The position numbers and the translations under genes were made by a program. Source: Sinimarinibacterium sp. NLF-5-8 (lineage in GTDB: Bacteria; Pseudomonadota; Gammaproteobacteria; Nevskiales; Nevskiaceae). From it: a stretch of 64,000 nucleotides of DNA. This document shows positions 9,148-27,046 of the stretch, piece by piece (the first letter of the stretch is position 1; each line of letters begins with the position of its first letter). A model generated the notes under the pieces. It was not told where the DNA came from. It saw only the letters and a program-made list of their open reading frames with translations, and did no database searches. The stretch is taken from positions 1,871,501 to 1,935,500 of the forward strand of contig NZ_CP048030.1 of the NCBI RefSeq assembly GCF_010092425.1, written 5' to 3'.

Positions 9148-10901
9148 GAGCGCGGCTCCGAATGCAGCGTCACCGACGGAAATGCAACCGTGCGCGGCGT
9201 GGTCAGCTCGGGTGAATCCGAGCCTTCCGGGGAAATTTGCAGCAGGCGCGCGGCATCCTGCATCACATGCGAAAACGCCGGTGCGGCCACCACGCCGCCG
9301 TAATACCCGGACGCGCTCGGCTCATCGATCATCACCAGCCCGACCAGACGCGGGTGTTCCGCCGGCACCATGCCGACGAAGAACGATTGGTGGCGGTTGC
9401 CGGCATAGCCGCCCGCCGCAACCTTGCGCACGGTGCCGGTCTTGCCCGCCACCTGGTAGCCATGAAACGAGGCGCGCGTGGCGGTGCCGCCGGGCATCAC
9501 CACATGCTCCAGCATGTGCCGCACTTCGCGCGCGGTGTTGGCCGAAACCGTGCGCTGCGGCGGCATCGGCATGGCACTGCGCAGCAGGCGCAGCTGCGGC
9601 ATCAGGCCGTCATTGGCCAGTCCGGCGTAGGCGCGCAGCAGGTGCATCGCGGAAATGGAAAAGCCATAGCCGTAGGAGGCGGTGGCGGTGGCGATGTTGC
9701 CCCACTCGGTAAAGTGCCGAAGCACCGGCATGACCTCACCGGGAAAGCCGGTGAACATCGGCTCGCCAAAACCAAACTTCTGATAGCCCGACCACACCCG
9801 CTCCGGCCCCAATTCCAGGCCAATCTTGGCCGCGCCGACGTTGCTGGACTTCATCAGGATCTTGGTCAGATCGGCCATCCCCTGGGAGCTGACATCGCGC
9901 ACCGTCAGCGAACCGACCCGAAAATAGCCGGGCGAGGTGTCGATCACCGTGTCGGGTTGCACCGCCCCGACTTCCAGCGCCTGCGCCACCAGCAGCGGCT
10001 TGACCGTGGAGCCGGGTTCAAACGAATCGACAATCGCCTTGTTGCGCGCGCCGCGCGAGGTGCGCTCGCCGGGGTTGTTGGGGTTGAAGCCGGGCTGCGA
10101 GGCAATCGCCAGAATATCGCCGGTGGCGCTGTCGGCCACGATGATGGTGCCGCCCTTGGCCTTGTTCTCGGTCACGGCTTTTTTCAGCTCGCGATAGGCC
10201 AGGTATTGAATCCGCAGGTCGATGGTCAGCCGCACATCCTCACCGGGGCGCGCTTCCCGAAACTCCAGATTGTCCTCAACCACGCGCCCGGCGCGATCGC
10301 GGATCACCCGGCGCACGCCTTCATGCCCGGCAAGAATGGTTTCCTGGGCTTTTTCAATGCCTTCCAGCCCGGTGCCATCGCGCCCGGTAAAGCCCACCAG
10401 TTGTCCGGCAACCTCGCCCGCCGGGTAATAGCGCGCATACGAAGGATCCGAAAAAACCCCCGGTGCCTTGAGCGACAGCACGCGCTTGGCATCGGCCGGT
10501 GCCAGCGCATTGCTGATGTAGACAAACTTGCGGCTGCTGCGGGCGCGCAAAAAGGCTTCGAGTTCGGCAGGACGGCGGTTGAGCACCCGCGCCACGGCCG
10601 TGACGTACTCGGGCGATGCCAGCAGCTCGGACGGCACCGCCCAGATCGTTTCCACCGGCGCCGACAACGCCAGCGGCTCGCCGCGCCGATCGACAATGGC
10701 GCCGCGATGCGCCGGGATTTCCACCGTGCGGATATGCCGTTTGTTGCCTTCCTTAAGCAGAAAGTCGCGCTCCAGCACCTGTAATTGAAAGGCCCGCCCG
10801 AAAACGATGACCGCACCCACCGCCATCACGATCAGCACCAGCGCGCGACGCCACGCTGGAACCGGTTTGGCAACAGGGTTGGATTTGGCGTGCATGGTCA
10901 C
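9144..10901 (-). CDS. ftsI: Septal peptidoglycan transpeptidase FtsI (PBP3)
   Basis: FtsI is the class B penicillin-binding protein that cross-links septal peptidoglycan with FtsW. The 585-residue protein has a short cytoplasmic tail, one membrane anchor near residues 19-40, a pedestal domain containing 'AHRGAIVDRRGEPLA', and a transpeptidase domain. The active-site motifs are SxxK in 'FEPGSTVKPLL', SxN in 'MKSSNVGAAK' and KTG in 'VAGKTGTVRKV'. Length and order match typical FtsI. It overlaps ftsL and murE by four bases each. Confidence 0.97.
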   Translation of the reverse strand: MTMHAKSNPVAKPVPAWRRALVLIVMAVGAVIVFGRAFQLQVLERDFLLKEGNKRHIRTVEIPAHRGAIVDRRGEPLALSAPVETIWAVPSELLASPEYVTAVARVLNRRPAELEAFLRARSSRKFVYISNALAPADAKRVLSLKAPGVFSDPSYARYYPAGEVAGQLVGFTGRDGTGLEGIEKAQETILAGHEGVRRVIRDRAGRVVEDNLEFREARPGEDVRLTIDLRIQYLAYRELKKAVTENKAKGGTIIVADSATGDILAIASQPGFNPNNPGERTSRGARNKAIVDSFEPGSTVKPLLVAQALEVGAVQPDTVIDTSPGYFRVGSLTVRDVSSQGMADLTKILMKSSNVGAAKIGLELGPERVWSGYQKFGFGEPMFTGFPGEVMPVLRHFTEWGNIATATASYGYGFSISAMHLLRAYAGLANDGLMPQLRLLRSAMPMPPQRTVSANTAREVRHMLEHVVMPGGTATRASFHGYQVAGKTGTVRKVAAGGYAGNRHQSFFVGMVPAEHPRLVGLVMIDEPSASGYYGGVVAAPAFSHVMQDAARLLQISPEGSDSPELTTPRTVAFPSVTLHSEPRS

Positions 10902-11170
10902 GGCCCCGCCTTGACGACTTGATAATCACGCGGCTCGACCATGCCCAGCTGCTCGCGCGCGACCTTGTCCACCCGGTTGTTGTGCGCCAGCGTGGCTTCT
11001 TCGATCTGTAACTGCGCCCATTCCATCTCCAGGCGCTCACGATCCTGGCGCAACTGCTCCAGTTCGGAGACCAGCGCGCGGTTTTCATGCTTGGTACGGA
11101 TCACCACCAGCGCGGAATAAAACACCGCCACGCCCAGAACCAGCACCACCATCCACAGGCCGCGCTTCAT
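10898..11170 (-). CDS. ftsL: Cell division protein FtsL
   Basis: FtsL is a small bitopic division protein that works with FtsB and FtsQ to activate FtsWI. The 90-residue product has a short basic N-terminus, a hydrophobic span around residues 6-22 ('LWMVVLVLGVAVFYSAL') and a periplasmic heptad-rich region, 'ALVSELEQLRQDRERLEME', ending 'AREQLGMVEPRDYQVV'. The last motif is characteristic of FtsL. Sequence conservation in this family is low, so position between rsmH and ftsI is part of the evidence. Confidence 0.93.
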   Translation of the reverse strand: MKRGLWMVVLVLGVAVFYSALVVIRTKHENRALVSELEQLRQDRERLEMEWAQLQIEEATLAHNNRVDKVAREQLGMVEPRDYQVVKAGP

Positions 11171-17388: not shown

Positions 17389-18837
17389 TTACCTCAGCCC
17401 TGAAAACCGCGCCAGCGTGCGTTCGCGCGCCTGGGCGTGATCAACGATGGGATGGGGATAATCGCGCCCCAGTTGCAGGTCGCAGGCCTGGCGCTCCAGC
17501 GGTTTCATCGCTGCCGGAAAGTGGATATGAGCGTCGGGCACGCGCGCCAGTTCGGGCAGGTAGCGGCGGATGAATTGACCTTTGGGATCAAACTTTTGCG
17601 ATTGGGTGATGGGGTTGAAGATCCGAAACCACGGCTGTGCGTCGCAGCCGGTGGACGCCGCCCACTGCCAGCCGCCGTTGTTGGCGGCCAGATCGTAGTC
17701 GTTTAAATGCTCGGCAAAAAAACGCTCGCCGCGACGCCAGTCGATGCCCAGATCCTTGGTTAAAAAACTGGCGACGACCATGCGCAGGCGGTTGTGCATG
17801 TAGCCGGTGTGCAGCAGTTGGCGCAGCGCCGCATCCACCAGCGGATAGCCGGTGCGCGCTTGGCACCAGGCTTGCCATAACGCCGGCGCTTCGTCCCATT
17901 GCACGCGGTCAAACTGCGGCTTAAAGGATTGCGTGACCACCTTGGGGTGACGCCACAAAATCATGAAATAAAAATCGCGCCATGCCAGCTCCGACAACCA
18001 GGTTTGTGCGCCCACACAGCCTTGTGCGGCTTGGGCGGCGGCCAGCGCCGCAAGCTGGCGGATCGACACCGTGCCAAAGCGCAGATGCACCGATAGATAC
18101 GACACGCCTTTGACGCTGGGGAAATCGCGCGCGCGTTGGTAGTGCGCCATGCGCGGGACAAAGTCGTTGAGCAATTGCATTGCACCGCTGCTTCCGGTGG
18201 GCAGCGCGCGCGGCAGTGAAGGTGCAGCGGTAAAACCGAGGTCTTGCAAGCTCGGCAACGGCTCGCCTGCGGGCGGCGGCGCCAGGCGCTGGGCGTAGCG
18301 CTCCAGCGGATAGGCTTTGAGTTGAAACGCATCCAGCTTTTGCAGCCACGCGCGCTTGTACGGGGTAAAAACACTGTAATGCTGGCCTTGCCGGGTGAGC
18401 ACTTCGTCGCGCTCCAGCAGCACCTGGTCTTTGTAATCGCTAAAGGCAATGCCGCGCGCGTGTAAGTCAGCGGCAACCTGTTGATCGCGCGCGATGGCCG
18501 TGGGTTCGTAATCGCGATTGGTTAAAACCTCTTGCACACCAAGGCTTTGCGCCAGCTCAACGATGCAGCGCGCGGCACTGCCGTGACGCACGATCAGCCC
18601 GCCACCGGGCGCGCCGTGATCGGCGGCCAACTGCTGCAAGCGCGCGTGCAGTTCCACCACGCTGGCGTGGATAAACGCCACGCGCCGATCCTGGCGGCTG
18701 GGCAGCGCATCCAGGATGTCGGTATCAAACACAAACGCGCAATACACCCGATCAAACCGCCGCAGCGCGTGATACAGCGCGGCGTGATCGGTGCAGCGCA
18801 AGTCGCGGCGCAGCCAAACCAGGGCGGTGGCAGTCAT
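17389..18837 (-). CDS. phrB: Deoxyribodipyrimidine photo-lyase
   Basis: Class I photolyase that repairs UV-induced cyclobutane pyrimidine dimers using blue light, FADH- and an antenna chromophore. The 482-residue product starts 'TALVWLRRDLRCTDHAAL' (antenna domain). The C-terminal FAD-binding domain includes 'SELAWRDFYFMILWRHP', 'YPLVDAALRQLLHTGYMHNR' and 'NGGWQWAASTGCDAQPWF'. Its tryptophans are those expected for the electron-transfer chain and dimer pocket. It is the last gene of the nine-gene operon divergent from the MerR-type photoreceptor and overlaps the NTF2-like gene by four bases, so it is probably light-induced. Confidence 0.95.
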   Translation of the reverse strand: MTATALVWLRRDLRCTDHAALYHALRRFDRVYCAFVFDTDILDALPSRQDRRVAFIHASVVELHARLQQLAADHGAPGGGLIVRHGSAARCIVELAQSLGVQEVLTNRDYEPTAIARDQQVAADLHARGIAFSDYKDQVLLERDEVLTRQGQHYSVFTPYKRAWLQKLDAFQLKAYPLERYAQRLAPPPAGEPLPSLQDLGFTAAPSLPRALPTGSSGAMQLLNDFVPRMAHYQRARDFPSVKGVSYLSVHLRFGTVSIRQLAALAAAQAAQGCVGAQTWLSELAWRDFYFMILWRHPKVVTQSFKPQFDRVQWDEAPALWQAWCQARTGYPLVDAALRQLLHTGYMHNRLRMVVASFLTKDLGIDWRRGERFFAEHLNDYDLAANNGGWQWAASTGCDAQPWFRIFNPITQSQKFDPKGQFIRRYLPELARVPDAHIHFPAAMKPLERQACDLQLGRDYPHPIVDHAQARERTLARFSGLR

Positions 18838-19343
18838 CGAAGGTTTTTGGATGATGGATCGGTGGCCGCAGGCGCGGCCGCCGATTGTCGCAGCCAGCGC
18901 ATCAGCGCCCCCAAAACCGGCAACTTTTCATAAAGCTCCTCGGCCGCATCCCAGTAATCACGGTGATCGCTGACGCGGCCTTGCTGATCAAAACGCAGCA
19001 GCGTGGCACCGCGAATGCACTGCGCCTGACCGCGCCGCCAGCGCCGCATGGCAAAGCGAAACTCCCAGCTCAAAAAAGCCTGATCGCCCTGGCTGATGTG
19101 GCTGAGCACGCAAAAGCGCGGCTGATCCAGCGTGGCAAACATATGGGCAAAAATCTGGGTGATCGCCGCCACGCCGTAAACATCGTTAAACGGGTCTTTA
19201 AAGTGCGCATCGGCCGCGTAGTACTCGGCCAGATGCGGCAACTGCGCGGGCGACAGCTGCTCATACAAGGTGATGATCCGCTGCGTGGCGGGCGGCGCCG
19301 GTGAGGCGGTGTTGCAACGGTCTGCGCAATCCAAGGCGGCCAT
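18834..19343 (-). CDS. NTF2-fold (SnoaL-like) protein
   Basis: A 169-residue protein with the NTF2/SnoaL pattern: 'ITLYEQLSPAQLPHLAEYY' followed by 'DAHFKDPFNDVYG', then 'AFLSWEFRFAMRRWRRG' and 'DHRDYWDAAEELYEKLP'. A homologue of this kind commonly lies beside photolyase and an SDR in light- or stress-induced clusters; the reaction, if any, is unknown. I chose the ATG at 19343, two bases after the upstream SDR stop; an in-frame TTG at 19349 is less likely. It overlaps the photolyase start. Confidence 0.8.
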   Translation of the reverse strand: MAALDCADRCNTASPAPPATQRIITLYEQLSPAQLPHLAEYYAADAHFKDPFNDVYGVAAITQIFAHMFATLDQPRFCVLSHISQGDQAFLSWEFRFAMRRWRRGQAQCIRGATLLRFDQQGRVSDHRDYWDAAEELYEKLPVLGALMRWLRQSAAAPAATDPSSKNLR

Positions 19344-19345
19344 GA

Positions 19346-20128
19346 TCAAAGTCCGGTGAGGCGGTGAATCAACGGAAAATAAACGCGATACGGCAAGCAG
19401 CGCAGCAGCTTGAGCACGCCGGTAAATCGCTTGGGAAAATGCACCTCAAACTGACCGCGCTCCCAGCCGCGGACAATCGCCGCAGCGGCTTGTTCAGCGC
19501 TGAGCAAGGCCGGCATTGCAAACGAGTTTTGTGCGGTCAGTGGGGTATCAACAAAGCCTGGATTGACCACACTCACGCCCACCCCTTTGGGGCGCAGATC
19601 AATAAACAGATTTTCGGCCAGGTTGATCAGCGCGGCCTTGGTCGGGCCATAGGCCAGCGCCTGCGGCAAGCCGCGCCAACCGGCGACGCTGGCAACCAAA
19701 CTCAGATGCGGCGCGCGCCCGGCCTCGGCGGCTTGCAACAAAGCCGGAACCACCGCCGTGAGCACATGCAAAGCGCCCTGAACATTGACCTGTTGATGTT
19801 TGAGCAGCTCGGCCAAATCGGGCGCGCTGGCCGTCATCGGCCGGTAATGTCCGGCGCAATAACACACCCAATCGAGTGCGCCCTGCGCCAAAAGTTGCTG
19901 CGCGGCGGCGTTGACGGCAGCGGCGTCGGTGACATCCAGCGGCAAGGCTTGCGCACCCGGATGCGCGCGCACAAACGCCTGTAACAACGTCTGCTGGCGC
20001 GCCGACACCCACACCTCGGCACCGCGCGCGTGCAGCGCCGCCGCCAGCGCGCGACCAATGCCGCTGGACGCGCCAATAATCCACACCCGCTGCCCGCGCC
20101 AATGGCGCACTTTTGGATTTAAAGACAC
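19346..20128 (-). CDS. Short-chain dehydrogenase/reductase of the photolyase cluster
   Basis: A 260-residue classical SDR. It has 'VWIIGASSGIGRALAAAL' as the NAD(P) loop, 'DWVCYCAGHYRP' in place of the usual NAG motif, and 'AYGPTKAALINLAENL' with the Y-x3-K catalytic pair. I chose the GTG at 20128, which has AAGGA about 8 bases upstream and lies 4 bases after the DUF3833 gene; the longer open frame would overlap that gene by 47 bases. Substrate unknown. It belongs to the operon headed by the FAD oxidoreductase at 25956. Confidence 0.87.
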   Translation of the reverse strand: MSLNPKVRHWRGQRVWIIGASSGIGRALAAALHARGAEVWVSARQQTLLQAFVRAHPGAQALPLDVTDAAAVNAAAQQLLAQGALDWVCYCAGHYRPMTASAPDLAELLKHQQVNVQGALHVLTAVVPALLQAAEAGRAPHLSLVASVAGWRGLPQALAYGPTKAALINLAENLFIDLRPKGVGVSVVNPGFVDTPLTAQNSFAMPALLSAEQAAAAIVRGWERGQFEVHFPKRFTGVLKLLRCLPYRVYFPLIHRLTGL

Positions 20129-20132
20129 AGCC

Positions 20133-20681
20133 TTATTCCTTGCTGAAAGACAGCAATACCTGCCCCAAATTGATGCCAAATTTGCGCATGGTGGCGCGGT
20201 TGAGCATCACCCGCTGATCCATCAAAAACATCCAGTCATCAAACTGCACGTCATATTCGCGGCCATCCACTGGCAGACGCAGCGTGTATTTCCAGTGAAA
20301 CGCATTTCCGGATTGCTGCCCTTGCGCCTCCCCAACCACATCGTCGGCGTGGCCGGTAAAACGACCATCGGGGTGCTGGGTCAAGCGCCATATCCGTCGC
20401 TCGGTGCTGCCGTCATCGTTATAAAAAGTCTCATCCAGCACGCCGTGATTGCCCTGCCACTGACCGTCCATCACCACGGTAAAACGGCGCGCCACCACGC
20501 CGTTGCGCTTTTGAAACAAGCCATGCGCCACCACCCGCCCATTGAAGTAGTCAGCCAAATTAAGCTGCGGCTGCTGCTGCGCATAGTCGGTGACTCGTGG
20601 CGTGCTACAGCCCAGCAGTGGCACGGCGAACAGCGCCATCAACAGCAGCTTTCCAAGATTGATTCGACGCCTTGTTTTCAT
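20133..20681 (-). CDS. DUF3833-family lipoprotein
   Basis: The 182-residue product has a basic N-terminus, a hydrophobic signal and a lipobox 'LLGC' (MKTRRRINLGKLLLMALF then AVPLLGCS). The body matches DUF3833: 'LNLADYFNGRVVAHGLFQKR', 'MDGQWQGNHGVLDETFYND' and 'DDWMFLMDQRVMLNRATM'. DUF3833 proteins are regularly encoded with photolyase, CFA-synthase-like and FAD oxidoreductase genes; the molecular role is not known. It overlaps the MFS gene by four bases. Confidence 0.87.
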   Translation of the reverse strand: MKTRRRINLGKLLLMALFAVPLLGCSTPRVTDYAQQQPQLNLADYFNGRVVAHGLFQKRNGVVARRFTVVMDGQWQGNHGVLDETFYNDDGSTERRIWRLTQHPDGRFTGHADDVVGEAQGQQSGNAFHWKYTLRLPVDGREYDVQFDDWMFLMDQRVMLNRATMRKFGINLGQVLLSFSKE

Positions 20682-21991
20682 CGTATGACTCTTTCATCAG
20701 CAAAACGCAAAACCGGCCGCCAGCGCTGTAACAGCAGCGCCGCCAACCCCTTGAGCGCGCAGGGCAGTAGCGCATACAGCCACGCCAAGCGCTGCAATGC
20801 CTGCGCATCGTCACTGCCGGGGACATACCCCAGCCATTGCAGCAGCGGCAGAGCCGCACCAGCGGCCAAGGCCAAATTGAGTTTGGTGGCCAGATTCCAC
20901 CAGCCCAGATAGGCGCCATCGCCACGACCTTGGGCGCCGCAATCGGCAATCAGCAGCGACAGCAACGCCCCCGGCACCGCCAAATCGGCGCCCAGCGCCA
21001 CGCCGGTGAGCGCGCAAATCAGCGCAAACGCAGCAATTTGCTGGCTGTGCAAACCCGCTGCCCAGGCAAAACACAACACCGCCAGCACCATGCCCAACTG
21101 CCACGCGCGTGCCAGCCCGACTCGGCGCAACAGCCACAACCAGATCGGCAGTGACAGCGCTGCACACACGAAATACAGCACCAAAAACAGCGCAATCTGC
21201 GGCGGTGACGCGCGCAATTGATCCTGGGCAAAAAACAGCATCAACACCGCCGGAATCGCGCTGGCAATGCCATTACATGCAAACACCGCCAACAGCCGCC
21301 GGAACCGTCTTTGTTGCAAAGGCTGCAACAACGCTGCCGCCCCCTCCAGCGCACGCGGCGGCGACAACCGTTGCGCGCGCAGCGGGCGCGGCGCTTGCGC
21401 CAGCGCCCAAATCCCCATCAGCAATGTCAGGCTCAAAACCAGCAGCATCGGCACCACGCCCCAAACCAGCGCCAGCGCACTGGCGGCGATCACCCCAAGC
21501 AAGCCAGCGCCCTCGCGCCAGGCCACCACGCGGCTGCGCAGGGCGGCATCCCCGCCGAGCTGAACACCCCAGGCTTGGTGTGTGATCACCAGCACGCTGT
21601 GTGCCAGACAAGTGATCAGCAGCCCCAACAGCAGCCACACAGAACGCCCGACGACCGACGCCGTTTGCGGAAAAAACAGCGCCCACATGCCCGCTGCCAG
21701 CAGCAGCGTTGCCCAGCGCATTTGCCGCAGCACCGCGCGCGCGCCGCGTTGAGAGTGGTGATCGCTGAGGCGCCCAATCAAAGGTTCAACACCGGCATCG
21801 ATCAGACGCACCAGCAGCAGCAGCGCGCCTACTTGCGCCAGCGGCAAACCCAATTCGCGCGCGTAGTGATTGGGTAGCAACACAAATAGTGGCAATGCCG
21901 CAAAGGCCAGCGGCAAACCCAGCGCGCCATAGGCCAAGCCCGCCGTCCCACGCAGCTGCGTCAATTCGCCATTGGCACAGCGTTGGCTCAT
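20678..21991 (-). CDS. MFS transporter of the GPH (sugar/cation symporter-like) family
   Basis: A 437-residue polytopic protein with about 12 hydrophobic segments. The GPH/MFS_2 signature 'RLIDAGVEPLIGRLSDHH' lies near residue 60, and a loop 'WGVQLGGDAALRSRVVAWRE' follows near residue 140. Members of this subgroup accompany lipid-modification genes in several proteobacterial light or oxidative-stress clusters, where a lipid-related cargo is more plausible than a sugar; that is inference. Overlaps the DUF3833 and chalcone-isomerase-like genes. Confidence 0.83.
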   Translation of the reverse strand: MSQRCANGELTQLRGTAGLAYGALGLPLAFAALPLFVLLPNHYARELGLPLAQVGALLLLVRLIDAGVEPLIGRLSDHHSQRGARAVLRQMRWATLLLAAGMWALFFPQTASVVGRSVWLLLGLLITCLAHSVLVITHQAWGVQLGGDAALRSRVVAWREGAGLLGVIAASALALVWGVVPMLLVLSLTLLMGIWALAQAPRPLRAQRLSPPRALEGAAALLQPLQQRRFRRLLAVFACNGIASAIPAVLMLFFAQDQLRASPPQIALFLVLYFVCAALSLPIWLWLLRRVGLARAWQLGMVLAVLCFAWAAGLHSQQIAAFALICALTGVALGADLAVPGALLSLLIADCGAQGRGDGAYLGWWNLATKLNLALAAGAALPLLQWLGYVPGSDDAQALQRLAWLYALLPCALKGLAALLLQRWRPVLRFADERVIR

Positions 21992-22605
21992 GGCGCGCTG
22001 GCCTCACCCAGCAGCGCGCGCCGCAGACTCGGTGCCGAGGTTTGCGGCGACAGCCAAATCGCATAAAAGCGCCGCGCCAATTCGGCATCGTCAATCGGCG
22101 CCAGCGGTTGCTGGTCGTGCCAAAACCGCAAGCCCTGATGCGGCTCATATACGCCAGTCAAACGCTCACCGGCCTGGACATCGGGAAAAACCGCCGTCAG
22201 CGCCGCCTGCCAGCGCTGCGCCAGTGGCGCGGCAATGGGCTGCTGACGCTGCATTTCTTCAATCGAGCGCTGCGCAATCGCCGCGCCCTTGAACGCGCGC
22301 TGGTAGCGCAGCTCCAGCGCCAGCGGCGTGGCCGTAAACGCCTGCGGATCAAACGCTGGCGTCACCCACAGGCGCGCGTGATAAATCCGCAGCCCCCAAA
22401 CCCGCATTTGCGCTTGTCCGCGCAAGTAAGCCTCGGGCAAGGCTTGCGTCACCATCGCCGGGATTGGCTCCGGCAATGCCGCTGCGCGCGCCCCGCCACC
22501 CCCCAGCAGCACCAGCAGCAGCACCGCCCTGAGCAGCCCAAACCGGCGCGCGACGGGCGCGCGGTTGCAGAACAGGCGCAGGCTGGCGGCAGGCACGGCG
22601 CTCAA
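21988..22605 (-). CDS. Chalcone isomerase-like periplasmic protein
   Basis: A 205-residue exported protein. A hydrophobic signal (about residues 22-40, 'FGLLRAVLLLVLLGGGG') precedes a domain with 'RVWGLRIYHARLWVTPAF', 'ALELRYQRAFKGAAIAQRS' and 'VYEPHQGLRFWHDQQPL', matching the bacterial chalcone-isomerase-like family. These proteins probably bind fatty acids or other lipids rather than act on flavonoids. It overlaps the CFA-synthase-like gene by four bases, supporting a lipid-related role in this operon. Confidence 0.78.
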   Translation of the reverse strand: MSAVPAASLRLFCNRAPVARRFGLLRAVLLLVLLGGGGARAAALPEPIPAMVTQALPEAYLRGQAQMRVWGLRIYHARLWVTPAFDPQAFTATPLALELRYQRAFKGAAIAQRSIEEMQRQQPIAAPLAQRWQAALTAVFPDVQAGERLTGVYEPHQGLRFWHDQQPLAPIDDAELARRFYAIWLSPQTSAPSLRRALLGEASAP

Positions 22606-23825
22606 TCCTTGACCAGGGTGTACTGCACCACGTCGATGTTTTGGCTATCAAACGCCGCCTCGCAGTAGGCCAGATAAAACGCCCAGGTGCGGATAAAGCG
22701 CTCATCAAAACCCTGTGCCAACACCTGCGCGCGCTGCTGCTGAAACTGCTGCTGCCAGCGCCGCAAGGTTTCGGCGTAATCGGCGCCAAACGCCGATTGC
22801 TCAACCACGCGCAATCCGGCTTTTTGAGCCTGCGCACAAAACCGCGAGGGGCTCGGCAGGCAGCCGCCGGGAAAAATATATTGCTGAATAAAATCAGTGT
22901 CCTGCACATAGCGATCAAACAAATCATCTTGAATCACAATGCTTTGTACGCAGGCGCGGCCGCCGGGTTTGAGCAGGCGCGCGAGGGTTTCAAAGTAGCT
23001 CGGCCAGTACGCCTGACCGACTGCCTCGATCATTTCGATTGAGCAAATCGCATCAAACGGCGCGTCTTCAATATCACGGTAATCCTGCAAGCGCAGCTGC
23101 GCGCGCGCCGCCACACCGGCCTGCTGCAAGCGTTGTTCGGCATAGGCCAGTTGTTCGGTGGACAGCGTCACGCCGGTGATCTGGGCGCCAAAATCAACCG
23201 TGGCCATCTCCGCCAGCGCGCCCCAGCCACAGCCGATTTCGAGCACCCGATCACCGGCTTTGACCCCTGCACTGCGCAGCGCGCGCCGCACTTTGGCATT
23301 TTGCGCCTGGGTCAAATCCCCTTGCAGATTGCCGGCAAACCAGGCCGACGAATAATTCATGCTCGGATCCAGCCACAGCTGATAAAACCCATTGCCCAGA
23401 TCGTAATGCGCGTGAATGTTGCGCCGGCTGCCGCTGCGGGTATTGCGATTGAGCCGATGGCGTAGCTGATACGCCAGCTTGCCCCACCAGGCGCCATACA
23501 CCATCGACTCCAACGGCGCGCGATTGGCCACCAGCAAACGCAGCAAATCGGCCAGCTGCGGCGTGCTCCATTGCTGCTCAATGTAGGCCTCGGCCAAACC
23601 AATATCGCCGGCCCGCAGCACCGCCGAAAACACCCGCCAGTCGTGCACGCGCAAGCTGGCATGAGGCGGCTTGCCCTGCCCAAGTTGCAGGCTGCGACCA
23701 TCCGGCAAGGTGATGTGCAAGGTGCCGTGCTCCAGCCGTTGCAACAGGTGCAGTGCCGGGCGCGCGCTCAGCGGCACCGCAGCAGGCAAGCGCAGACCCA
23801 ACAAAGAAAAAAGGGTGGAATTCAT
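22602..23825 (-). CDS. Cyclopropane-fatty-acyl-phospholipid synthase-family methyltransferase
   Basis: A SAM-dependent enzyme of the CFA synthase family that modifies double bonds of membrane phospholipid acyl chains. The 407-residue product has an N-terminal lipid-interaction domain ('GTLHITLPDGRSLQLGQG'), then 'HAHYDLGNGFYQLWLDPS', the SAM loop 'VLEIGCGWGALAEMA' and the active-site region 'EMIEAVGQAYWPSYF'. I chose the ATG at 23825, which overlaps the DUF1365 stop as ATGA. Homologues next to an FAD oxidoreductase and DUF1365 can make methylated or furan fatty acids instead of cyclopropanes, so the exact product is uncertain. Confidence 0.9.
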   Translation of the reverse strand: MNSTLFSLLGLRLPAAVPLSARPALHLLQRLEHGTLHITLPDGRSLQLGQGKPPHASLRVHDWRVFSAVLRAGDIGLAEAYIEQQWSTPQLADLLRLLVANRAPLESMVYGAWWGKLAYQLRHRLNRNTRSGSRRNIHAHYDLGNGFYQLWLDPSMNYSSAWFAGNLQGDLTQAQNAKVRRALRSAGVKAGDRVLEIGCGWGALAEMATVDFGAQITGVTLSTEQLAYAEQRLQQAGVAARAQLRLQDYRDIEDAPFDAICSIEMIEAVGQAYWPSYFETLARLLKPGGRACVQSIVIQDDLFDRYVQDTDFIQQYIFPGGCLPSPSRFCAQAQKAGLRVVEQSAFGADYAETLRRWQQQFQQQRAQVLAQGFDERFIRTWAFYLAYCEAAFDSQNIDVVQYTLVKD

Positions 23826-24655
23826 GGGATGTGATCGTCCGGTATCGAGCGTGAAACCGCGTCCGCAGGCGCCTGCGGTTTGGAATAAAAAGGCACTTTT
23901 TTCAGCCACAACAGCAACGCATTCCAGAGGATGCGCGCCATCACCCCGAGCGATAACAGCGGATAACGCCACAGCGCGCGGCGACGGCTGCGCGCGGTCA
24001 ACGGCTCCAGCGCGCCGCTGATTCCGGTGAACAAAACCGCAGCGCCATCGGCATCGTGATAATCAATTCGCACCCGCAGCCCTTGCAGTCCATCGGCGCC
24101 ACTGCGGCCAAATTCAAAGCGATAACTGCCCTGCACCGTGCAAAACGGCGACACATGAAAAACCTTGTCGGCGCGCAGCTCCTGACCATAGCGCGGCCGG
24201 TCGAGCAAATACGCATGGCGCTCACCAAAGGTGTTGTTCACCTCGGCGACGATCGCGCGCAAGCTGCCGTCGGCGCGGTGGCAATACCAAAAGCTCACGG
24301 GCTTGAAGCTGTAGCCCAGCACACGCGGATAGCATTGCAGCCAAATTTCGCCATCGGCATCGTCAATGCCTTGTGCCTGCAACAACGCCTCCAGCCACGC
24401 CAGCGCCCCACCCTGCTCAGGGCCACAACCGGCGCCATGATCGGCATCCCGAAACGCCAATGCTCCGGCACGATTGAGCGCCAGCACGCCAGCGGCCTGC
24501 GGATTGGCACGCAAGGTGCGCATCGGCAATAACAAGAAAAACGTCGGCACCACAAAACGATGTTGCTGCGGCCGCAAACGGGTATGCCAAACCCGCCCAA
24601 AGCCAATCTGCGGCCGCGCGCTGATCATCCCGTCGGCGATCGCTGCGCGGCTCAT
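23822..24655 (-). CDS. DUF1365 family protein
   Basis: A 277-residue protein with the DUF1365 pattern: 'GRVWHTRLRPQQHRFVVPTF' near the N-terminus, 'VLGYSFKPVSFWYCHRADG' near residue 115, 'VAEVNNTFGERHAYLL' and 'KVFHVSPFCTVQGSYRFEF'. The family is almost always adjacent to a CFA-synthase-like enzyme and an FAD-dependent amine-oxidase-like protein, as here, and is thought to take part in fatty-acid modification. It overlaps both neighbours by four bases. Confidence 0.9.
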   Translation of the reverse strand: MSRAAIADGMISARPQIGFGRVWHTRLRPQQHRFVVPTFFLLLPMRTLRANPQAAGVLALNRAGALAFRDADHGAGCGPEQGGALAWLEALLQAQGIDDADGEIWLQCYPRVLGYSFKPVSFWYCHRADGSLRAIVAEVNNTFGERHAYLLDRPRYGQELRADKVFHVSPFCTVQGSYRFEFGRSGADGLQGLRVRIDYHDADGAAVLFTGISGALEPLTARSRRRALWRYPLLSLGVMARILWNALLLWLKKVPFYSKPQAPADAVSRSIPDDHIP

Positions 24656-25956
24656 GCGGCACGCCTTTGCTCAAGCCACGCCACTACGCCTTGCGCCGCG
24701 CGCAAGCCCGATTGCAGGCCATCTTCGTGGAAGCCATATCCCGTCCAGGCACCGGCAAACCAGGTGTTGTGCTGACCCTGGATTTGCGGCAACTGCTTTT
24801 GCGCCGCCAGCGCCGCCAGATCAAACACCGGATGGGCATAGTCATAGGCGCCCAGCACCAAGGCCGGATCAATCGGCACCAGCGGGTTGAGCGACACCAG
24901 CACAGGCTGCGCAAACGGCAACGGCTGCAATCGGTTGATCCAGTAATGCAGACACACGCGCGCGGATTCTTGCGCCGCATCTGCCGCGCGCTGGTAATTC
25001 CACGACGCCCACGCCGAGCGCCGTTGCGGCATCACCGAGGCATCGGTATGCAAGACCGCGCGATTGGCCTGATAACCTATGGCGCCGAGCACCTGCTGCT
25101 CAGCCGCGCTGGGCTGCGCCAGCAAGCGCAAAGCCTGATCGCTGTGCACCGCCAGTACCAGCGCATCAAAACGCTCGGCGCCGTCACTGCTGTGCACCAC
25201 CACCCCCGCCGCACTGCGCTCAATGCGCACAACCGGCGTGGACAAACGGGCTTGCAAGCCCTTGATGAGTGCCTGCACATACTGGCGCGCGCCACCGGCG
25301 ACGGTGTACCACTGCGGTCGATCCTGTACCTGGAGCAAGCCGTGGTTGTGGCAAAAGCGCACCATCGTCGCCACCGGAAACCGCAGCATTTGATCGGTTG
25401 GGCAGCTCCAGATACAGCCGAGCATTGGCAAAAAATACCAATCCCGAAAGACCGCATCAAAACCCTGCGCATCTAAAAAATCGCCCAACGGCTGCGTCAA
25501 CGCCTGCTCATCGCCGCTGTGCGCCAAAGCCGTGCACAAGCGATTAAAGCGCAGCACTTGCGCCAGCATCGACAAAAACTGCGGGCGTAGCAGATTGCGT
25601 TTTTGCGCAAACACCGTCGCCAGATTGGAGCCACTCCACTCCAGTGCCGCCGCCCCCAGCACGCCCGCCCCCGGCACTTGCACCGAAAACGACATCTCCG
25701 AGGCCGCCGTTGGCACCTTGAGTTCATCAAACAGTGCAATCAGCCCTGGATAAGTGCGCTGGTTAAACACCAAAAAGCCGGTGTCCACCCCACAGCTCAC
25801 GGTTTGTCCATGCGCATCCGGCAGGCTCACATCAACGGTGTGGGTATGCCCGCCAAAATAATCACCCGCTTCAAACACGCTCACTTGTGCGTGATTGCGC
25901 AGGCGATGTGCCGCCGTCAGTCCTGAAATGCCCGATCCGATCACGGCGACTTTCAT
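24652..25956 (-). CDS. FAD-dependent oxidoreductase (flavin amine oxidase-like) of the lipid-modification cluster
   Basis: The 434-residue product begins with the FAD-binding loop 'MKVAVIGSGISGLTAAHRL' and 'VFEAGDYFGGHTHTVDV'. Later it has 'NQRTYPGLIALFDELKVP', 'MLGCIWSCPTDQMLRFP' and a C-terminal FAD contact 'NTWFAGAWTGYGFHEDG'. This set fits the proteins encoded with CFA-like and DUF1365 genes, which may desaturate or oxidise acyl chains. The frame is open upstream to 26175, but that would run through the divergent regulator, so I chose the ATG at 25956. It is the first gene of the nine-gene operon. Confidence 0.9.
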   Translation of the reverse strand: MKVAVIGSGISGLTAAHRLRNHAQVSVFEAGDYFGGHTHTVDVSLPDAHGQTVSCGVDTGFLVFNQRTYPGLIALFDELKVPTAASEMSFSVQVPGAGVLGAAALEWSGSNLATVFAQKRNLLRPQFLSMLAQVLRFNRLCTALAHSGDEQALTQPLGDFLDAQGFDAVFRDWYFLPMLGCIWSCPTDQMLRFPVATMVRFCHNHGLLQVQDRPQWYTVAGGARQYVQALIKGLQARLSTPVVRIERSAAGVVVHSSDGAERFDALVLAVHSDQALRLLAQPSAAEQQVLGAIGYQANRAVLHTDASVMPQRRSAWASWNYQRAADAAQESARVCLHYWINRLQPLPFAQPVLVSLNPLVPIDPALVLGAYDYAHPVFDLAALAAQKQLPQIQGQHNTWFAGAWTGYGFHEDGLQSGLRAAQGVVAWLEQRRAA

Positions 25957-26071
25957 AATGCTTCCGTTGAATGATGTTTTGAAGCGGCAGAAAGCCACCG
26001 CAGCTGTGATGTAATGTATTAGACAAAACAATTTCTGTCTAGGACAATTAATCAAACGCAACAGACTTTCC
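25957..26071. promoter_or_regulatory. Divergent promoter/operator of the photoreceptor gene and the lipid/photolyase operon
   Basis: A perfect inverted repeat TAGACA-N10-TGTCTA occupies 26020-26041. Read leftward, TAGACA (26036-26041) is a -35 with TACATT (26013-26018) as -10 at 17 bp. Read rightward, TAGACA (26020-26025) is a -35 with GACAAT (26043-26048) as -10 at 17 bp. The two promoters therefore face each other and share DNA. Two related 11-mers, TGTATTAGACA (26015-26025) and TGTCTAGGACA (26036-26046), lie 21 bp apart. One bound repressor would shut both directions. Confidence 0.6.
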
Positions 26072-27046
26072 ATGACGCCTTCAACGCCACCAACGACCCC
26101 AAACCCTTTGAAAAACAGCAACGCCAGACTCACCATTGCCGCAGTTGAACGTGAAACCGGCCTGGGCAAAGACACTCTGCGTGTTTGGGAACGCCGTTAC
26201 GGTTTTCCGACGCCAACGCGCGACACCGCAGGCGATCGGCTGTATAACGCCGAGCAAGTCCGACAGCTCAAATGGATCAGCCGTCTGCTGGATGCCGGCC
26301 TGCGCCCGGGCAAGATCGTGGGTCTGGATGACGCCGCGCTGCAAGCCTTATTGGCACAGAACGTCGCCGCGCCGAATCCACAATTGTCCAAGACAAAAAC
26401 AGCACAATCGGCGATCAACAGCATGATTGGCGAATTGCTGAGCACCATCGGCAAACACGATCCGCGCAGCCTGCGGCACAGCCTCAGCCGCGCCCAACTG
26501 CGAATGGGGCTCACCGCGTTCATCACCGATCTGGTCGCCCCGCTGAACACGGCCGTGGGTGAGGCCTGGGCACTCGGACGCTTTGAGGTGTTTGAAGAAC
26601 ACCTGTACACCGAAATCATCACCAGCGTGTTGCGACACGCCATTGGCTCACTGCCGCCGCAGCCCGTGCCTCAAGGCCCCAAAGTGCTTTTGACCACAGT
26701 GCCGCAGGAACAGCACGGTCTTGGACTGCTGATGGTGGAAGCGTTGCTGGTTCTCGACGGTTGCAGCTGCGTGTCGCTGGGCACGCAAACTCCGCTGAGT
26801 GACATCGTGCAAGCGGCGCTGGCGCATCGCGTCGACGTGGTGGCGCTGAGTTTCACCAACCAGCACAAGGCCAGCATGGTGCAAGCCAGCCTGCGCGAAC
26901 TGCGCGAACAACTGCCCGCCAGCACCGCCCTATGGGTCGGCGGCGACTGTCCAGTGCTCTATCAATGGCCGCAAGCCGGAATCAGCGCGGTGCAGCATTT
27001 ATCGGGGCTGCAACCGCTGGTAACGCAGTGGCGCCACGCCCATTAG
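26072..27046 (+). CDS. MerR-family adenosylcobalamin-dependent photoreceptor repressor (CarH/LitR type)
   Basis: A 324-residue protein with a MerR winged HTH (residues about 20-85, 'DTLRVWERRYGFPTPTRD'), a helical bundle (about 115-200) and a Rossmann B12-binding domain (about 203-324). All photoreceptor marks are present: W166-x9-E176-H177, which caps the upper axial ligand in CarH, and E213-x-H215-x-x-G218, where His is the lower cobalt ligand, plus GG at 290-291. CarH/LitR proteins repress in the dark and fall apart when light breaks the Co-C bond. The gene is divergent from a photolyase/lipid operon across a 115-bp promoter region, the usual arrangement for this regulator. It probably also represses itself. 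Confidence 0.88.
   Translation: MTPSTPPTTPNPLKNSNARLTIAAVERETGLGKDTLRVWERRYGFPTPTRDTAGDRLYNAEQVRQLKWISRLLDAGLRPGKIVGLDDAALQALLAQNVAAPNPQLSKTKTAQSAINSMIGELLSTIGKHDPRSLRHSLSRAQLRMGLTAFITDLVAPLNTAVGEAWALGRFEVFEEHLYTEIITSVLRHAIGSLPPQPVPQGPKVLLTTVPQEQHGLGLLMVEALLVLDGCSCVSLGTQTPLSDIVQAALAHRVDVVALSFTNQHKASMVQASLRELREQLPASTALWVGGDCPVLYQWPQAGISAVQHLSGLQPLVTQWRHAH

Follow-up and report, generated by a model that had tools for sequence, protein, structure and literature searches.

Which genes might a B12 photoreceptor control other than those for carotenoids, of which such proteins are mainly known as switches? The question is raised by a locus of Sinimarinibacterium sp. NLF-5-8, where a MerR-family regulator resembling CarH is encoded divergently from nine genes that end in a photolyase. 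We analysed the 64,000-nucleotide stretch of contig NZ_CP048030.1 containing it (hereafter, the window, whose numbering we use), for which a sequence-only reading had proposed control of membrane lipid genes by a light-broken Co-C bond. Our results make it highly probable that the regulator is a class I LitR/CarH photosensory repressor, released by light, that governs a furan-lipid and photolyase operon, and that the cassette was gained horizontally. Here the putative target of the B12 photoreceptor reads as the full furan-fatty-acid pathway, and the cassette that holds both occurs widely in Burkholderiales and in a single case in a different order. The cassette is real and well conserved, and its parts are ordinary; judging from the sequence, it is probably mobile and its CarH is likely a B12 photoreceptor.

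Signatures of the regulator

The 324-amino-acid (aa) MerR product (Table 1) contains both signatures that had been noticed in it, W166-x9-E176-H177 and E213-x-H215-x2-G218, with H215 as the predicted lower axial ligand; a script motif search recovered the two of them, and the protein exceeds the cut-offs of three Pfam families, MerR_1, B12-binding_2 and B12-binding. Thermus CarH (5c8d) matches it with an E value of 2.7e-27. From a scan of genome contigs we kept the best 80 of at least 570 confirmed relatives (loci L039-L118) and, adding the window, GxxWx9EH is retained in 81 of the 81 CarH sequences and ExHxxG in 80. The B12 motif varies naturally in L066 (Extensimonas perlucida, carH 10001-10927), its duplicate L215, and L214, whose CarH proteins have Q in place of the E of ExHxxG but retain Wx9EH and the axial His.

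A putative furan fatty acid operon

With start codons assigned, the nine genes divergent from carH, all on the minus strand, overlap by 4 bases or stand 2-4 bases apart, which confirms the tight block ending in photolyase that had been described, with one correction. The 507-aa open reading frame (ORF) of the first gene starts at a GTG inside carH, and its likely start is the ATG at 25956, so that the region between carH and ufaD has 115 bases. Pfam found all the domains previously named: the flavin adenine dinucleotide (FAD) oxidase, DUF1365, the CFA-like methyltransferase, the chalcone-isomerase-like protein and the GPH-type MFS transporter.

A DUF1365 protein, an FAD desaturase-like protein and a CMAS methyltransferase are encoded in a row, the gene set expected of the furan pathway. 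According to the available portion of PMC7380195, UfaM, UfaD and UfaO suffice for the synthesis of monomethyl furan fatty acids in Rhodobacter, UfaO having a DUF1365 domain and UfaD a phytoene-desaturase-like NAD/FAD-binding domain, and the last three genes of R. sphaeroides RSP1087-1091 are dispensable for furan synthesis. By domains, residues and gene order, the first three genes of the operon are best read as ufaD-ufaO-ufaM, a predicted route to methylated furan fatty acids.

The operon could instead produce cyclopropane or other methyl-branched lipids and not furans, as its third product falls within CMAS of Pfam and has matches among solved Cfa structures. However, the window enzyme has S, A and Q at the positions of C139, H240 and H266 of E. 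coli Cfa, which we take to be important, and so lacks the canonical residues. S or A, followed by A and Q, is found in 62 of 62 cassette methyltransferases passing a length filter, in all 20 ufaDO-linked copies of relatives, in an Azoarcus copy and in a ChrR-linked copy from Ensifer; one of two Cupriavidus paralogues retains C/H/H and the other has S/A/Q. With these replacements across the cassette copies, and with UfaD- and UfaO-like proteins encoded alongside, gene 3 is disfavoured as a cyclopropane-making Cfa and a non-furan product appears very unlikely. The proposal that the operon acts on membrane acyl chains is thereby refined, with furan fatty acids as the most likely products. In Halomonas, ufaM is set apart from cfa by product and tree, as far as the accessible text of PMC12089945 goes.

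A candidate operator under two divergent promoters

A consensus scan of positions 25900-26500 returned two interlocked sigma-70-like promoters, one per strand, compared to 0.2 in shuffled sequences; both have 9 of 12 consensus matches, the minimum of the scan. The interlocked segment coincides with T(A/G)GACA-N10-TGTC-N3-GACAA, a stretch conserved among close loci that combines an inverted dyad with a direct half-site at a distance of 21 bases. With a matrix built from 24 loci, leaving out the window, the latter scores 47 of 60 bits, and every other place in its 64 kb stays below 8 bits, apart from this site read in reverse. In 73 of the 80 loci, the core dyad (TTTGTC-N3-GACA or TGTC-N3-GACAA) occurs upstream of carH at a distance of at most 250 bases, against 0.0096 expected from the rest of these loci. 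Because the putative operator overlaps both promoters, its occupation would shut both, and carH would also repress itself.

The 28-base pattern has a single exact place in the whole genome, between carH and ufaD. A wider CarH regulon was rejected, as allowing up to three mismatches gives 27 places (one exact and two with two mismatches) versus 21 in a reversed control. In L063, L067, L068 and many distant loci the ufaD-carH gap is longer, apparently with extra genes that by eye are glutathione peroxidase-like and GTP cyclohydrolase-like, and are possibly further CarH targets.

An operator-like dyad within carH

Surplus matches around 310 bases into the carH of relatives first disclosed a second, intragenic dyad, which occurs in the 19 carH genes of a tree-defined clade that includes the window and in 22 of the 27 members of the surrounding clade. 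In a further sample of 399 genomes, from the family holding the Comamonadaceae loci, 32 strong matches led to 30 fetched loci, 15 of them new in that a 300-base carH stretch was absent from earlier loci, although some are close kin of these. The dyad (TTGTC-N3-GAC[AG]) is present in all eight of these further carH genes with at least 64% identity, and in none of the seven with 60% or less.

Across the 19-member clade, 121 residues are invariant and have synonymous codons to choose from; only five of these use a single codon throughout, and three of the five are the TTG, TCC and ACA of the dyad; in the site-bearing set, TTG makes up 19% of the Leu codons and ACA 13% of the Thr codons, site included. 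The central codon is AAG, AGG, ACG or ATG, which changes the residue and leaves the half-sites unchanged, and CarH residues 99-109 form a low-confidence, predictedly disordered linker in a structure prediction. Since the codons of the dyad are fixed, the central codon varies and the linker is probably disordered, selection at the DNA level, and hence a second CarH site in carH, is a likelier reading than a constraint on the peptide. That the peptide LSxT is what is needed, and not DNA binding, would agree with the dyad being always in one frame and encoding LS(K/R/T/M)T; it fits poorly with three of the only five single-codon residues falling in the dyad, and with a central codon that varies precisely at the base that changes the amino acid, within disordered residues, and we deem it rather unlikely.

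The distance from the promoter operator to the intragenic dyad ranges from 348 to 392 bases in 20 relatives, with no helical phase kept. A strict loop through helical phasing of the two operators is therefore not supported, and a roadblock or cooperative loading would be favoured over a fixed loop. In the 25900-26500 scan there was no promoter at the intragenic dyad, beyond the two on the main operator. In L059 and L065 (matches ca. 279 and 273 bases into carH) the dyad seems, by eye, to be joined by the third half-site, spaced roughly as in the promoter operator, which would make a full operator within carH.

The putative operator inside carH is a new prediction of this analysis, sharp and cheap to check; a non-exhaustive literature search of titles and abstract starts gave no paper on it. 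In its most extended form, the internal second operator would hold the disordered linker to codons needed by the DNA-binding domain of CarH, the dark oligomer would block its own gene twice, and this two-site switch would travel as a cassette, one that supplanted a furan-lipid operon under other regulation in the host, a proposal for and against which we find the scales about level.

Distribution and probable horizontal transfer

Most of the best 80 loci are named Burkholderiales, the rest being unplaced proteobacteria or a few other names. For 53 loci, the sequence upstream of carH reaches 8.5 kb or more and the gene content could be tested: ufaD, ufaO and the methyltransferase gene are divergent from carH in 50; the eight-gene run that begins with ufaD and ends with the SnoaL-like gene is complete in 42, invariably in the order of the window (42/42), and the photolyase lies within the flank examined in eight. 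At least ufaD is present in 22 of the 27 shorter loci, and the mobilizable Azoarcus plasmid pAZKH contains carH and the same eight genes. Because the motifs are kept in 80-81 of 81 CarH sequences, and the eight-gene order in 42 of 53 loci, the arrangement is not due to chance. Four loci from Delftia and Comamonas (L054, L055, L059 and L174) have a close carH and no ufa operon in the flank examined; in L174, the neighbours of carH are a BLUF protein and chemotaxis receptors.

In a tree of the joined UfaD, UfaO and UfaM sequences (87 tips, 1059 columns), the window is nested among Comamonadaceae and further Burkholderiales, with supports of 0.96 and 1.0 for the two inner nodes around it; the same is true of its CarH (85 tips, 316 columns, leaving out L085), with supports of 0.92 and 1.0. 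The genomes with close cassettes belong to the class of the host and to another order, and several of the loci are named Comamonadaceae contigs. Within the order of the host, strong carH matches are limited to three of 85 genomes, namely the host and two others at 44-46%, and none of ten congeners has a full-length match. A search of 61 genomes gave a single DUF1365 match in each of 56, among them the host: the protein of the ten congeners is 36-44% identical to that of the window, and the sole copy of the host at that threshold is the Burkholderiales-like one. Twenty native loci, from the ten congeners and ten other relatives, show the order ufaD-ufaO-ufaM without carH, and a generic ECF query matches in three of them.

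Since the window copy nests among Burkholderiales and all ten congeners retain a different ufaDOM operon, the cassette was probably acquired horizontally by the host lineage, and its gain together with loss of the native operon would be the simplest account. In-place replacement of the native operon is not supported, because the flanks (window ORFs of at least 150 aa outside the operon, compared with ca. 8 kb on each side of the 20 native loci) match native sites in only three weak single hits of 30-35%.

A different light cluster exists in the family of the host, in L027 (5378-14111, genome G032). Its carH, 46% identical to that of the window, is divergent from an ORF that by eye is ECF sigma-like, and, likewise by eye, its neighbours include GTP cyclohydrolase-like, short-chain dehydrogenase (SDR)-like and cryptochrome/photolyase-like ORFs and a second LitR-like MerR.

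A proposed light-released switch and its alternatives

The genome contains, in a row and on the same strand, a cobalamin riboswitch (119 bits), a TonB receptor and a PduO-type adenosyltransferase (182 bits). A second B12-binding_2 match lies in a 1275-aa frame, presumably a methionine synthase, a name that we infer. This apparent route to adenosylcobalamin (AdoCbl), the class I features of the regulator and the divergent layout of operator and promoters all favour the earlier suggestion of a light-broken Co-C bond as the controller.

The motifs, the predicted fold, the overlap of promoters with operator, the conservation and the tree positions are seen in the sequences; AdoCbl binding, repression, response to light, lipid products and photoprotection we infer as follows. 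In the dark, AdoCbl from salvaged cobalamin would bind between W166/E176/H177 and the lower ligand H215, and the AdoCbl-CarH oligomer would occupy the operator, blocking RNA polymerase at carH and at the ufaD operon. Light would break the Co-C bond, the oligomer would fall apart and the operon would be transcribed. UfaM would methylate vaccenoyl chains of phospholipids, UfaD would desaturate the methylated chains and UfaO would add oxygen, closing the furan ring. The photolyase would repair DNA, and the furan lipids, generally known as protective against photo-oxidative damage, would help against it. The cassette itself would have entered the host lineage from a Burkholderiales-like donor.

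Several findings pull in the opposite direction. A class I LitR/CarH signature consists of the SignatureFinder motifs GxxW, EH, GxxH and GxxxP (PMC11796333, in the portion available); the window CarH has three of them, and GxxH reads QxxH. It scores 122.5 bits with the CarH equivalog NF052513 of NCBIfam, whose cut-off is 400, and we assign it by its motifs to the wider CarH/class I LitR family and not to this narrow equivalog. A genome search found no CobA/BtuR-type adenosyltransferase. The operator does not resemble the tandem 11-bp direct repeats given for Thermus in the accessible part of PMC8156234, and its strict pattern fits only 25 of 73 intergenic regions, window included; in most of the distant loci, the shorter dyad core alone was found. 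Among eight loci without a ufaD match, outside the matrix training, five reach at least 10 bits (L044 59.8, L059 44.8, L054 and L055 17.8 each, L050 13.0) and three fall below. The intragenic dyad is found in 21 of 37 carH genes with at least 53% identity, counting the window, and in one of 44 below that. Two Delftia loci and one from Comamonas have carH without ufa genes in the flank examined, and in a class-wide sample seven of 369 genomes, host included, match carH at E 1e-55. As for transfer, G032 and G081, from the order of the host, have carH matches of only 44-46%; the native operon L153 falls on the betaproteobacterial side in the enzyme tree, though not within the CarH clade; and the cassette is inconspicuous in base composition.

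Two other regulators could also be imagined at this position. A LitR-family repressor might have kept the fold and be relieved by a partner (PmlR2/LOV-like), independently of B12 and of AdoCbl photolysis, given that class II LitR functions without B12 (PMC9758184) and that CarA of Myxococcus binds B12 and yet does not need it (PMC8156234). In the same portions of these sources, however, class II LitR retains the helical bundle only and CarA is without one of the two signature motifs, presumably Wx9EH, whereas Wx9EH is present in every CarH sequence of our set and ExHxxG in all but one, which renders B12 independence highly improbable. CarH might also report AdoCbl sufficiency instead of light, as shortage and photolysis would both empty the repressor and the host appears to salvage cobalamin; but its presumed targets include a photolyase along with lipid genes like those of singlet-oxygen clusters, and no cobalamin genes, and the exact operator is unique to the carH/ufaD locus in the genome, so that we give this idea hardly any credence.

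Table 1. Features of the carH-ufa locus, in window positions
Feature	Position	Strand	Basis
carH / class I litR; MerR-family repressor, B12-binding domains of helical-bundle and Rossmann type	26072-27046	+	motifs, Pfam, predicted fold
Candidate intragenic operator-like dyad TTGTCCAAGACAA, carH codons 105-108 (LSKT), predicted disordered linker	26384-26396	+	pattern match, conservation
Putative operator (26020-26047, TAGACA-N10-TGTC-N3-GACAA) under two divergent promoters	26013-26048	.	conservation and promoter scan
Predicted carH promoter, sigma-70-like, TAGACA-N17-GACAAT	26020-26048	+	consensus scan
Predicted ufaD promoter, sigma-70-like, TAGACA-N17-TACATT	26041-26013	-	consensus scan
ufaD-like FAD amine-oxidase-family protein	24652-25956	-	domain search
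ufaO-like DUF1365 protein	23822-24655	-	domain search
ufaM-like S-adenosylmethionine (SAM) methyltransferase, CMAS/Cfa family, S/A/Q at E. coli Cfa C139/H240/H266	22602-23825	-	domains, residues
Chalcone-isomerase-like protein (Chalcone_3)	21988-22605	-	domain search
MFS_2 / GPH-like transporter	20678-21991	-	domain search
DUF3833 protein, N-terminus lipoprotein-like by eye	20133-20681	-	domain search
SDR	19346-20128	-	domain search
SnoaL_2 / NTF2-like protein	18834-19343	-	domain search
Deoxyribodipyrimidine photolyase	17389-18837	-	domain search

Comparison with known systems

The window shares its genes, their order and a related operator with the CarH-ufa cassettes of Burkholderiales and pAZKH, of which it is one more copy; it differs in the taxonomic order of its host and in that its run ends directly in photolyase. 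The likeness to RpoE-ChrR singlet-oxygen clusters, pointed out in the sequence-only reading, is borne out by Rhodobacter RSP1087-1091 (PMC7380195, as available) and by clusters on Ensifer and Qingshengfaniella plasmids, where homologous ufaD-ufaO-like genes are divergent from the regulator, RpoE-ChrR in these plasmids, with an MFS gene nearby; the Ensifer cluster also has a CFA-family gene, with DUF3833 and SDR genes nearby. Unlike the window, these clusters have a sigma/anti-sigma pair instead of CarH, and sense singlet oxygen and not light via B12. Control by ChrR finds no support in the host, since the sole match in its genome, to a cupin ORF, reaches 30 bits where the cut-off is 124.5, and no sigma gene was recognised by eye around it (3.2 kb, ORFs of at least 150 aa); in 61 relatives, a weak match appears in 21 and none passes the cut-off. 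In Vibrio cholerae, blue-light control is common to a MerR-like protein and ChrR, according to the available portion of PMC5241685. In a plasmid of Cupriavidus sp. USMAHM13 (L180), a TetR-family gene is divergent from ufaD-ufaO-like genes, canonical Cfa-like and UfaM-like methyltransferases are both present and a cryptochrome/photolyase lies nearby.

In Thermus thermophilus, carH is located in pTT27, divergent from phytoene synthase and phr. Its product resembles that of the window in domain order, key residues and divergent control of a block holding a photolyase, but differs in sequence (ca. 30-34% identity), in having a carotenoid gene as target and in its tandem direct-repeat operator (PMC8156234, same portion). 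In Pseudomonas, the accessible part of PMC9758184 describes PmlR/PplR, class II LitR with short LOV proteins, as LitR-family repressors over phrB, an SDR, an FAD oxidoreductase and ufaM, the latter light-induced 25-33 fold. Unlike the window CarH, they have no complete B12 domain, do not require B12, work with a LOV partner and use the operator T(G/A)TACA-N12-TGTA(C/T)A.

The notion that the B12 wiring is unusual has to be narrowed, because the cassette is widespread in Burkholderiales and repressors of the LitR family have already been published as light-dependent regulators of ufaM in Pseudomonas. What is new relative to that B12-independent pairing of LitR and LOV is the predicted B12 wiring; a search of titles and abstract starts, not exhaustive, gave no paper that places ufa genes under a CarH of the B12 type. 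Related ufa genes stand beside RpoE-ChrR, a TetR-family gene or CarH, depending on the bacterium, and it can therefore be asked why some lineages would sense light and others its damage.

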